From: Lachnospiraceae bacterium
GTDB lineage: Bacteria; Bacillota; Clostridia; Lachnospirales; Lachnospiraceae
DNA length: 54,399 nucleotides
Direction: 5' to 3'
Assembly: GCA_017480565.1 (NCBI GenBank)
Contig: JAFVAL010000022.1
Location: 1 to 54,399, forward strand
Under the pieces are notes generated by a model that was given only the letters and a program-made list of their open reading frames with translations, had not been told where the DNA came from and did no database searches. The translations under genes and the position numbers were made by a program. The first letter of the stretch is position 1; each line of letters opens with the position of its first letter. Shown one piece after another: positions 49,746 to 53,030 of this stretch.

Positions 49746-51425
49746 ATGAAACGAGCACGTTACGTTTCACTCTTTGCTCTATTTCTCCTCTTCACGCTCC
49801 TCTTTGCAGGGTGTGCGAAAACACAGGAAAATGAAGCAGAGACCTCTGAAGTAAGCGATGAGATGGATGCTTCCGGCAACTATCATCTCTCTGCTTCCGG
49901 TGAGGCGATCATCGATGACGCATCGACAAGAACACCGGTGGCTTCACAAGACAACGCAAGGGTCTTTTACGAAATCTTTGTAGGATCCTTCTCCGACTCC
50001 AACGGAGACGGGATCGGCGATTTACGCGGCATCATCAACCGCATGGACTATTTAAACGATGGTGATCCGGCTTCGGGACAAAGCCTCGGCATCGAAGGCA
50101 TTTGGCTCACCCCGATCTTTAAATCACCAAGCTACCACAAGTACGATATCACCGACTACTACGAAGTCGACCCGGATTTCGGTACGATGGACGACCTGAA
50201 GGAACTTGTGGATCTCTGCCACGAACGCGGCGTCAAGGTCATCTTAGACCTGCCGATCAACCACACCGGACGCCTCAACGAATGGTTCGCCAGATTCTGC
50301 AACGCGCACCGCACCGGCGACACGACAAATGAATACTATGATTTTTACAGTTGGTTCGGACCCGGAGAATCCTCCGGCGGCCTGACCACCCAGCAGATCA
50401 ACGGTTCCTCTGACTACTACGAGTGCAATTTCTCCGGAGATATGCCAGAGCTGAATTTCGACAATCCTGCGGTTCGTCAGGCGGTTCTTGATGTGGCTGC
50501 CTACTATCTGGATCTCGGGGTCGATGGCTTCCGCTTCGACGCCGCCAAGTACATCTACTTCGGCGATGATCAGACCTCCGAGAATTTCTGGTTCTGGTAC
50601 ATTCACAGACTGAGAAACCTCAAATCCGACATCTACACGGTCGCAGAGGTTTGGTCCTCCGACGGTGTGACCGACATCTACTATCCGGCCATGAACTGCT
50701 TTAACTTCACGACCTCGCAGACCACCGGTCTGATCGCAGAGACCGCGAAGAAGGGAAATGTAAACGCCTTCACTTCCTACGTCGGCAACTTTATTTCCCA
50801 TGTCCAGAAAATGAATACCAAGGCGATGTATGTACCGTTCATCGCCAACCACGACACCGACCGCGCCGCAGGGTATCTGACCGTTGCGAGCAATCAGATG
50901 CAGATGGCAGCTAACCTCTACATCCTCTGCCCCGGATCTCCGTTCATTTACTATGGTGAAGAGATCGGCATGAAGGGTTCTCGCGGCAGCGCAAATACCG
51001 ATGCCAACCGGCGTCTTGCGATGGTTTGGGGGGACGACGATACGATCGCAGATCCGGAGGGAACCACCTACGATCCCACGAAGAAAGTCGATGCTTCTGT
51101 CGCAGACCAGCTCGCAGATGGAGACAGCCTCTTAAGCTACTATAAGAAGCTGATCATGATCCGGAAGGCAAACCCGGAGATCGCCCGCGGCGATTATGCG
51201 GCACTGCCGTTTGAGAACACGAAGATCGGAGGGTTCACTTCGACACAGGATGGAAGCACCGTGGCTGTGATTCATAACACGACTGGGTCGGAGGTCACTG
51301 TGGATCTTGCGGATGTGACGGATTTGAGCTTCACGGAGATTACGGCAGTGATTGGACTGGAGGATGCGAGTCTGGAAGGCACGAAGCTCACGATTGGGTC
51401 CAGTACAAGTGTAGTGCTGAGGTAG
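49746..51425 (+). CDS. Cell-surface alpha-amylase lipoprotein (GH13)
   Basis: The 559-residue protein has a lipoprotein signal (LLFTLLFAGCAK) and an acidic linker. Its GH13 barrel shows FYEIFVGSFSDSNGDGIGDL, DLPINHTG, nucleophile Asp in VDGFRFDAAKYIYF, acid/base Glu in IYTVAEVWSS and the third Asp in FIANHDTDRAAG, followed by an all-beta C-terminal domain. ATG at 49746 follows GGGAGG. It should trim starch or maltodextrin at the cell surface for the MalEFG importer. Confidence 0.93.
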   Translation: MKRARYVSLFALFLLFTLLFAGCAKTQENEAETSEVSDEMDASGNYHLSASGEAIIDDASTRTPVASQDNARVFYEIFVGSFSDSNGDGIGDLRGIINRMDYLNDGDPASGQSLGIEGIWLTPIFKSPSYHKYDITDYYEVDPDFGTMDDLKELVDLCHERGVKVILDLPINHTGRLNEWFARFCNAHRTGDTTNEYYDFYSWFGPGESSGGLTTQQINGSSDYYECNFSGDMPELNFDNPAVRQAVLDVAAYYLDLGVDGFRFDAAKYIYFGDDQTSENFWFWYIHRLRNLKSDIYTVAEVWSSDGVTDIYYPAMNCFNFTTSQTTGLIAETAKKGNVNAFTSYVGNFISHVQKMNTKAMYVPFIANHDTDRAAGYLTVASNQMQMAANLYILCPGSPFIYYGEEIGMKGSRGSANTDANRRLAMVWGDDDTIADPEGTTYDPTKKVDASVADQLADGDSLLSYYKKLIMIRKANPEIARGDYAALPFENTKIGGFTSTQDGSTVAVIHNTTGSEVTVDLADVTDLSFTEITAVIGLEDASLEGTKLTIGSSTSVVLR

Positions 51426-51446
51426 AACGTCGCAGTTTCGATCTTG

Positions 51447-52215
51447 GCAGGGACACCTCGCGGTTTCGTTTAGCCAGTAGCGGACACGTAAGCGGCCTTC
51501 CATAGTCACTCCCGCGAATATAGTATCATACATAAAGCTTGGGGCGTTGCTTACGCAACGAACGCCACAACTCAGACCCGCTATCATGCAAGCATGAGCG
51601 GCTCTGAGAATTGTGTCGTTATAACCCCAAGCTTTTTCAATTCACTCTATCCCCGCGAGTCGTAGCCGATGCGCGCCCGCCAAGTGCCGACTGTCTCAAA
51701 AACCCTGCAGATCGAAGCCTGCTCCTCCGTGGAGTGGCTACACAAACATGTGCTCCAGGGATTCACTTCTGGGAGAGCAAGTCGTTCGAAAACTTAGGTC
51801 ATAGCCCGAGGTTATTGAAGTCTTCGTCAATTTGTTTATCTGTCTTTACGTTTCACTTCCCGGGGGATGCACCTCACCTCTTGAGGGCTGGAAGGCTCGC
51901 GCAAGCCTACGAGCGAGGCGAATCGCAACCGGCTGCGGGGTCTTTGAGACAGTCGGCACTTAGCGTGGCGGGACTTCTCGCGGCGATAAACTACAAATGG
52001 ACTTGAGGGAAAAACAGCTTGCCTGGTTTGCTCGCTCACGCTTGCGTGAATGCGAGTCAAACTGACAAGCTGTTAGTTGCCGTAGGCAACGCCTCAAGTC
52101 CATATTATTATACTTATTCGCGGGAGTCACGGCCGCTTACGTGTCCGCTACTGGCGGCGTAAGAAATTGCTTGCAATTTCGTCGCGAGCGAAGCCCGAGA
52201 GGCGTCCCCGCACAC
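51447..52215. other. Gene-free region of nested inverted repeats (large structured RNA or MITE-like element)
   Basis: Outer arms 51475-51498 and 52131-52154 are exact reverse complements (24 bp, starting CCAGTAGCGGACACG). Inside them a second pair (51506-51521 with 52113-52130) matches except for small differences. Three separate folded domains follow: 51535-51636 (closed by AAAGCTTGGGG/CCCCAAGCTTT), 51654-51983 (closed by CCGCGAG/CTCGCGG and an exact 19-bp pair 51682-51700/51943-51961), and 51997-52103 (closed by ATGGACTTGAGG/CCTCAAGTCCAT). Open frames here are short and have no family resemblance. The arrangement is that of a multi-branch junction. Confidence 0.85.
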
Positions 52216-52238
52216 GGAAAGATTCGACGAGCCCATTG

Positions 52239-53030
52239 CTACATTGTTTCCCTCATCACATCTTCCAGCGCAACCTCTCCTCCAAACAGATCCAGTGCGC
52301 TTCCGATCGTCACATCAACCATCCCCTCCGTCAGCCTCCGAAACCTTCTCAGATCCTCGATCGACCCGATCCCTCCGGCGTACGTCACGGGATTCCTCCC
52401 TCCTCTGCTCCGATACTCTCTCAGTACTTCCAGCAGCTCCTCATCCATACCTGCCCCGGTTCCTTCTCGGTCCACGCCATGAATCAGATACTCATCGCAG
52501 GCATCTTCAAACGCAAGCAACAGCTCCGGGGTCACCGTGAGATCCGTATACGTCTGCCAGCGATCGGTCACGACATAAAACGCTTCCCCTTTTCTTCGGC
52601 AGCTAAAATCCAGTACCAGGTGCTCTCTTCCGATAGCACTTACGAGTGCTTCCAAGCGCTTCTGACTTAATTTTCCACCATCAAACAGCCAAGACGTCAC
52701 GATCACATGGGTCGCACCAAGTGCGAGCAAAGAAGCCGCATTTTCCCCATTCACACCTCCGCCGATCTGAAACCCGCCGGGGAATGCTTTCAGCGCAAGT
52801 TTTGCCTGCGCAAGGTCAGCTGTGTAAGCCTCTGTTCCTGCCGGATTTAGCAAAATGATATGGCCGCCGGCAAGTCCTTTTTCTCGGTACAGCGCTCCAA
52901 AAAAGCCGCCGTCCTGCTCGGAGACAAAGTTTTCTTTGGCAACACTCACACCAGCTTGTTCTGCGAGACTTCCGCCGACAATCTGTTTCACTTTTCCGTT
53001 ATGAATATCAATACAAGGCCGAAATCTCAC
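52239..53030 (-). CDS. hisA: Phosphoribosylformimino-AICAR ribotide isomerase, eukaryote-type HisA
   Basis: The 263-residue TIM-barrel protein begins FRPCIDIHNGKVKQIVGGSL and shows IGGGVNGENAASLLALGATHVIVTS split over two strands, YLIHGVDREGTG and YAGGIGSIEDL. These fit the longer eukaryote-type HisA (yeast HIS6-like) rather than the usual bacterial form. It catalyses the fourth step of histidine synthesis. No other his genes are adjacent. The start at 53030 lacks a strong binding site in view. Confidence 0.85.
   Translation of the reverse strand: MRFRPCIDIHNGKVKQIVGGSLAEQAGVSVAKENFVSEQDGGFFGALYREKGLAGGHIILLNPAGTEAYTADLAQAKLALKAFPGGFQIGGGVNGENAASLLALGATHVIVTSWLFDGGKLSQKRLEALVSAIGREHLVLDFSCRRKGEAFYVVTDRWQTYTDLTVTPELLLAFEDACDEYLIHGVDREGTGAGMDEELLEVLREYRSRGGRNPVTYAGGIGSIEDLRRFRRLTEGMVDVTIGSALDLFGGEVALEDVMRETM

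Follow-up and report, generated by a model that had tools for sequence, protein, structure and literature searches.

A dispersed palindromic hairpin repeat of Lachnospiraceae, probably a mobile element

Introduction

The described systems closest to the element reported here are the REP, REPIN and BIME sequences (GTAG and CGTC super-families), which the passages of PMC3733652 and PMC3116915 consulted present as dispersed, intergenic hairpins arranged head to head, often as heterodimers. The same passages of PMC3733652 describe them as non-autonomous and partly organized in tandem clusters, with copies between convergent genes lying <20 bp from both stop codons, and report a proposal that they serve as 3'-end structures acting as RNA. 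The Lachnospiraceae repeat shares this general organization but is much larger, with a core of 67 nt and a dimer of ~800 bp compared with 20-40 bp for a REP. It differs further in having few G-T pairs, which are frequent in REP stems, in having 9-12 bp target duplications (in one lineage) with no RAYT association, and in its tetranucleotide tag, which is unpaired at the hairpin foot of GTAG REPs (GYAG, GTRG) and partly paired in the core described here (these REP features again as given in the consulted parts of those papers).

Three other groups invite comparison. Like MITEs, the repeat is non-coding, has terminal inverted repeats and target duplications (here in genome G119 only) and lacks a transposase of its own; unlike them, it combines a constant core, conserved across genera, with variable ends, and no parent transposon was found. 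The BOX, RUP and SPRITE repeats of pneumococcus are small, interspersed and structured, reside in a Bacillota host and in some cases form large composites, but they are nearly confined to S. pneumoniae and S. mitis, whereas the Lachnospiraceae repeat spans many genera (a distinction drawn from their description in part of PMC3049150). The likeness to OLE, GOLLD, ROOL and other large bacterial RNAs is one of size and multi-branched appearance only; the repeat has no Rfam match, is dispersed in many copies and is practically devoid of G-U pairs.

The hairpin family is apparently undescribed. No account of a Lachnospiraceae hairpin repeat was found in the portions of the literature searched, including PMC3116915, PMC3049150, PMC1525189 and PMC6006769; term searches of PMC3733652 and PMC3116915 found no such repeat, the words Firmicutes, Clostridi and Lachnospir being absent from the text of PMC3733652, and in PMC12306157 a term search likewise found none, one table passage naming three Bacillota species.

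Structure of the element

The element extends over about 51426-52238 of the window (the whole stretch of 54,399 nucleotides analysed here) and fills the entire gap between two convergent genes, whose stop codons bound it on both sides: the left-hand gene, with an alpha-amylase domain, ends at 51425 (+), and the right-hand gene, with a His_biosynth domain, at 52239 (-). Copies in the same genome, located by BLAST, start near 51422-51428 and end near 52235-52248 in window coordinates. The window copy is composed of two head-to-head units, in each of which the short tip loop of a core hairpin is replaced by a multi-hairpin module; the right unit is of a different subtype from the left, making this copy a heterodimer. 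Its features are as follows.

51426-52238, no strand: whole compound repeat, two units head to head between convergent genes (BLAST copies and stop codons; exact ends inferred)
51428-51727, + strand: left unit (similarity of L012, L017 and L020 stops near 51727)
51455-51464, + strand: small hairpin at the side (ACC-TCGC-GGT), corresponding to CACGCTYGCG in relatives (by eye)
51465-51701, + strand: left core hairpin with expanded tip loop (model R2, 28.0 bits, E 2.2e-6)
51473-51497, + strand: outer arm holding the 5' side of the left core, exact complement of 52131-52155 (inverted-pair search)
51534-51635, + strand: left tip module, with closing stem, short hairpin and long hairpin (inverted pairs, minimum-free-energy [MFE] fold, compensatory changes among 18 units of this genome)
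51678-51710, + strand: inner arm forming the 3' side of the left core, with 91% complementarity to 51933-51965 (inverted-pair search)
51728-51879, no strand: spacer separating the two units (end of BLAST similarity, folding of pieces)
51880-52238, - strand: right unit, other subtype (copies in this genome; inner edge approximate)
51933-51965, - strand: inner arm, 3' side of the right core (inverted-pair search)
51942-52166, - strand: right core hairpin with expanded tip loop (model R2, 16.1 bits, E 0.031, weak)
51997-52103, - strand: right tip module (inverted pairs, MFE fold, compensatory changes in this genome)
52131-52155, - strand: outer arm, 5' side of the right core (inverted-pair search)

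A sequence-only reading of this DNA had proposed a gene-free, multi-branched structure of about 700 bp built of nested inverted repeats, and its architecture is borne out. The outer arms are fully complementary, as it had said, although they span 25 nt rather than 24. The inverted-pair search recovered the second pair (51505-51520 with 52115-52130; 16 nt, 94%) and the three closed domains, with closing pairs at 51534-51544/51625-51635 on the left (11 nt, 100%), 51678-51710/51933-51965 in the center (33 nt) and 51997-52008/52092-52103 on the right (12 nt, 100%). The stacked stems at 51568-51616 and 52026-52062, and the outer similarity near 51447-51470 and 52170-52215, are all present in the MFE fold. 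The limits given above are wider than it had placed them, and ORFs of >=60 aa exist within or across the element; three of these (51611-52003 +, 51839-52060 - and 51135-51587 -) have no Pfam family at E 0.1, and we rejected the idea of a protein encoded inside the element.

The folding energy of 51426-52238 is -405.7 kcal/mol, compared with -271 +/- 6.6 for shuffled versions (n=20; z -20), and the opposite strand gives -412.4 (z -18). All of 40 random 811-nt stretches of the window fold more weakly (mean -247, lowest -312). As RNA, the best fold pairs unit with unit over long range rather than folding the units separately, the pieces alone giving -111, -36 and -159.

Copies in the same genome

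A BLAST search of 51430-52230 against its own genome gave 73 matches including itself, at 22 further places, and the window element is therefore not a unique RNA gene. Fourteen of the 23 places lie <=100 bp from a contig end and look cut, so that a single copy may appear twice, as two halves, and the number of places does not fix the number of copies; the hairpin repeats probably break the assembly, as copies coincide with contig ends. With genes taken as ORFs of >=80 codons, seven of the eight copies with both neighbors visible lie between convergent genes, the exception being a short copy in L013. The gaps run from -6 to 100 bp, apart from 826 bp at L012 (the right ends of the L012 and L014 copies were guessed). 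At the 15 places with a single visible neighbor, 12 copies face its 3' end and three do not. A recurrent neighbor gene was rejected, the families found being general ones (ABC transporters, regulators and the like).

Left and right units differ in subtype across this genome. Among 18 long units, 31 of 50 predicted pairs show compensatory changes, tip modules included, and the stems do not simply drift; random drift was what the sequence-only reading had said would refute function. BLAST found no match in 60 relatives, including the genus-mate G001 (83% complete), and for an empty-site comparison by synteny the His_biosynth neighbor is unmatched in G001 and reaches <=59% identity elsewhere. Comparison by eye of L013 with the window, a single case, suggests that a short sequence (CCGCG, 5-6 bp) may be duplicated around the tip module.

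A conserved core across the family

A degenerate pattern of the arms matched 39 loci in genomic contigs, of which 35 were dropped as chance and four contain the whole hairpin, closed by a short tip loop. All four are Lachnospiraceae sequences, 'Lactobacillus' rogosae ATCC 27753 contributing three and Lachnospiraceae bacterium YSD2013 one. A covariance model built from these (R1) detects the core hairpin in 52 of 200 genomes of the family (one per genus), 40 of them with >=2 matches and 14 with >=10, in a search that scored at most 25 candidates. G000 is counted among the 148 hairpin-negative genomes because its long tip loops hide its hairpins from R1. With a model rebuilt from 61 matches (R2), a more sensitive search is positive in 17 of 38 genomes, with 1 to 104 matches each, and R2 detects both cores of the window, the left on the + strand and, weakly, the right on the - strand. 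The highest count observed, at least 104 matches, is that of G017.

In a sample of 398 genomes from across the phylum, five are positive; among the rows listed, these are four of the five genomes of the same family and one of the 393 others (G583). The copies of G583, which belongs to another class (L185, L189), look genuine and keep the side hairpin; they could reflect either transfer or deeper ancestry. Plasmids searched with the window copy gave nothing, nor did viral contigs searched with three exact patterns, which miss variants, and with that proviso phage or plasmid carriage was rejected.

The core consensus is CG-T-(AR bulge)-CGG-(optional A)-YAC-(RUA)-AG-variable stem-tip loop-stem-CU-(AA)-GUR-CCG-A-CG. 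It adjoins the small side hairpin and is wrapped in inverted repeats that vary by lineage. In its tag (GTAG, GTAA, GCAG or GCAA) the second base pairs and covaries, leaving the AR as a bulge with a further stem below; in 78 of 88 rows read, the pair at this base is T-A (60), C-G (17) or T-G (1). Outside the window's genome, the orientation of copies relative to genes is mixed (n=43: +|+ 16, +|- 13, -|- 8, -|+ 6), and 37 of the 43 copies lie between convergent or unidirectional genes.

Among the matches listed for six other genomes, all 15 pairs of inverted neighbors separated by <=700 bp are head to head, and the sole opposite arrangement listed has a gap of 850 bp. The partner in one of the 15 pairs, L198, is weak (E 0.16), and the count omits two antisense hits of L121 that overlap with sense hits. 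In the window's own genome the window copy, L009 and L020 are also head to head. Same-direction neighbors occur too, chiefly as tandem arrays in G135. Two such arrays are at L121 1648-2205 (four copies, 164-bp spacing) and L122 1454-1893 (three copies, 187-bp spacing).

The explanation that we consider probable for the window element as a whole is that it represents one copy of a mobile repeat of Lachnospiraceae that is dispersed, palindromic and non-coding.

DNA or RNA

A rival explanation, which we regard as unlikely although it fares best of the alternatives, is that the repeat acts as RNA, either as 3'-end structures (terminators or mRNA stabilizers) or as a small RNA family, while also being mobile. 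Strong stems, compensatory changes and conserved loops favor it, as does the placement of copies at gene 3' ends in the window's genome, and the same role has been proposed for REPs in the part of PMC3733652 consulted. The compensatory changes also count in favor of the mobile repeat. In 51 distinct core sequences, 95.5% of cells are paired (24-46% in slid controls), changes on both sides are seen in 21 of 22 pairs (9-12 in slid controls), and the covariation score is 0.662 compared with 0.05-0.10, in an alignment fitted to the structure and with kinship ignored in the statistics. Further standard pair types are not in excess (51, with a shuffle mean of 48.3; 102 of 500 shuffles reach 51).

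The composition of the pairs argues against an RNA. In MFE folds the G-U share is 1.5% for the cores and 2.0% for the units of the window's genome, compared with 12.6% in a reference set of 30 TPP riboswitches from the same bacterial family. The antisense folds give 6.1%, 6.8% and 10.4%, respectively, the value for the cores indicating that their two strands are not alike. Within the inner helices of 88 distinct cores (1265 cells) there are 14 T-G and no G-T cells, compared with five A-C and five C-A, with little strand asymmetry. Pairing that nearly lacks G-U suggests that the palindrome is kept as DNA; copying of one arm onto the other would also fit the low share. Also against an RNA role are the mixed gene orientation in other genomes and the Rfam results: the window at gathering scores gives three tRNAs only, and with E values as high as 5 allowed nothing matches over the repeat in L001 (the element locus) or in four related loci, so that any Rfam family was rejected as its identity. 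The sequence-only suggestion of a large ornate RNA of the OLE, GOLLD or ROOL type thus finds no support, given also the many dispersed copies.

Mobility

Evidence of movement comes from G119, where an inverted repeat (AGGCGATTGCGAAACTCTTC) forms the ends of the element. In 17 of 24 stretches examined the pair of ends could be measured; 13 of these contain the core and four lack it. Direct repeats of 9-12 bp flank six of these 17 copies, compared with two of 272 mismatched flank pairs, and duplications of >=8 bp flank eight, compared with 10 of 272; 11 of the 17 lack a duplication of 9 bp or more. The 9-12 bp target duplications indicate that copies transpose, and the mobile-element reading of the window repeat is supported. 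The core-less copies (56-130 bp) retain the ends and, judged from their sequences, look like internal deletions. A pattern search of the draft assemblies of G119 and of the window's genome found no autonomous element with the same ends. At about 430-825 of L171 in G119, four extra hairpins follow one another within the core, as though such sites gather hairpins, a small parallel to the tip expansion in the window.

A further rival explanation is that the repeat is a plain MITE, with a core lacking any function and stems that look conserved only because template switching copies one arm onto the other. The very low G-U share and the G119 copies that lose the core and keep their ends agree with this, and template-switch correction of quasipalindromes is known, as set out in part of the literature consulted. 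However, arm copying would erase bulges and asymmetric loops, and yet these are the most conserved columns of the core across 52 genera, from which we infer selection on a bulged DNA hairpin. Moreover, terminal repeats that vary between genomes around a constant core are the reverse of a MITE family. We therefore consider a plain MITE slightly less plausible still than an RNA. A non-autonomous mobile element with inverted repeats, the second possibility that the sequence-only reading had raised, accords with the many sites and the duplications in G119, but since compensatory changes and target duplications, which the test proposed with that reading had set against each other as signs of function and of a simple MITE, are both found, with stems maintained and unpaired bases conserved across genera, it is not a simple MITE either.

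The remaining alternative, a member of the GTAG REP/REPIN group moved by a REP-associated tyrosine (HUH) transposase, is very improbable: head-to-head dimers, heterodimers, intergenic placement at gene ends and tandem clusters all match the consulted account in PMC3733652, and of 82 rows in which a tag was read, 77 carry a GYAR tetranucleotide at the hairpin. However, in the core both G and T of this tag form pairs, and Y1_Tnp is found in 26 of the 52 genomes scored positive for the hairpin and in 90 of the 148 scored negative (p 0.19 by Fisher's test, assuming that both searches drew the same 200 genomes). With no association between the two, a Y1 transposase or RAYT was rejected as the mobilizer. 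G119, in which the target duplications were measured, is absent from the Y1_Tnp positives listed, and the window's genome has one 32-position Y1 stretch, below the cut-off. Target duplications are not generally expected of HUH enzymes, which also counts against this alternative.

Returning to the mobile repeat of Lachnospiraceae, we suggest that a transposase with its gene elsewhere, cutting in a staggered fashion, would move the copies in trans, and that the core may persist because it is recognized by a protein as folded DNA, either single-stranded or as a cruciform. Selection, perhaps together with template-switch repair of palindromes, could keep the arms matched. Copies may survive mainly at gene 3' ends, where they would do the least harm and might end transcription from both sides, and in the window's genome the tips appear to have gained further hairpin modules, giving the ornate form of ~800 bp. 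A broader and more tentative proposal is that the family as a whole is a DNA parasite, a bulged hairpin read as folded DNA independently of HUH/RAYT enzymes, with genus-specific terminal repeats and hairpins grown at the tips; it would be a Bacillota counterpart of REPINs with a different mobilizing enzyme.

A structured repeat present in a quarter of the sampled genera of a major bacterial family, with up to ~100 detected copies per genome, allows a direct test of whether dispersed bacterial hairpins are kept as DNA or as RNA, and offers a search handle for a putative hairpin-dependent transposition system. We note lastly that in G012 (L102, about 105-345) a direct repeat of ~80 bp holding CAAAGCGCTTGGATTTATT lies between two inverted cores.
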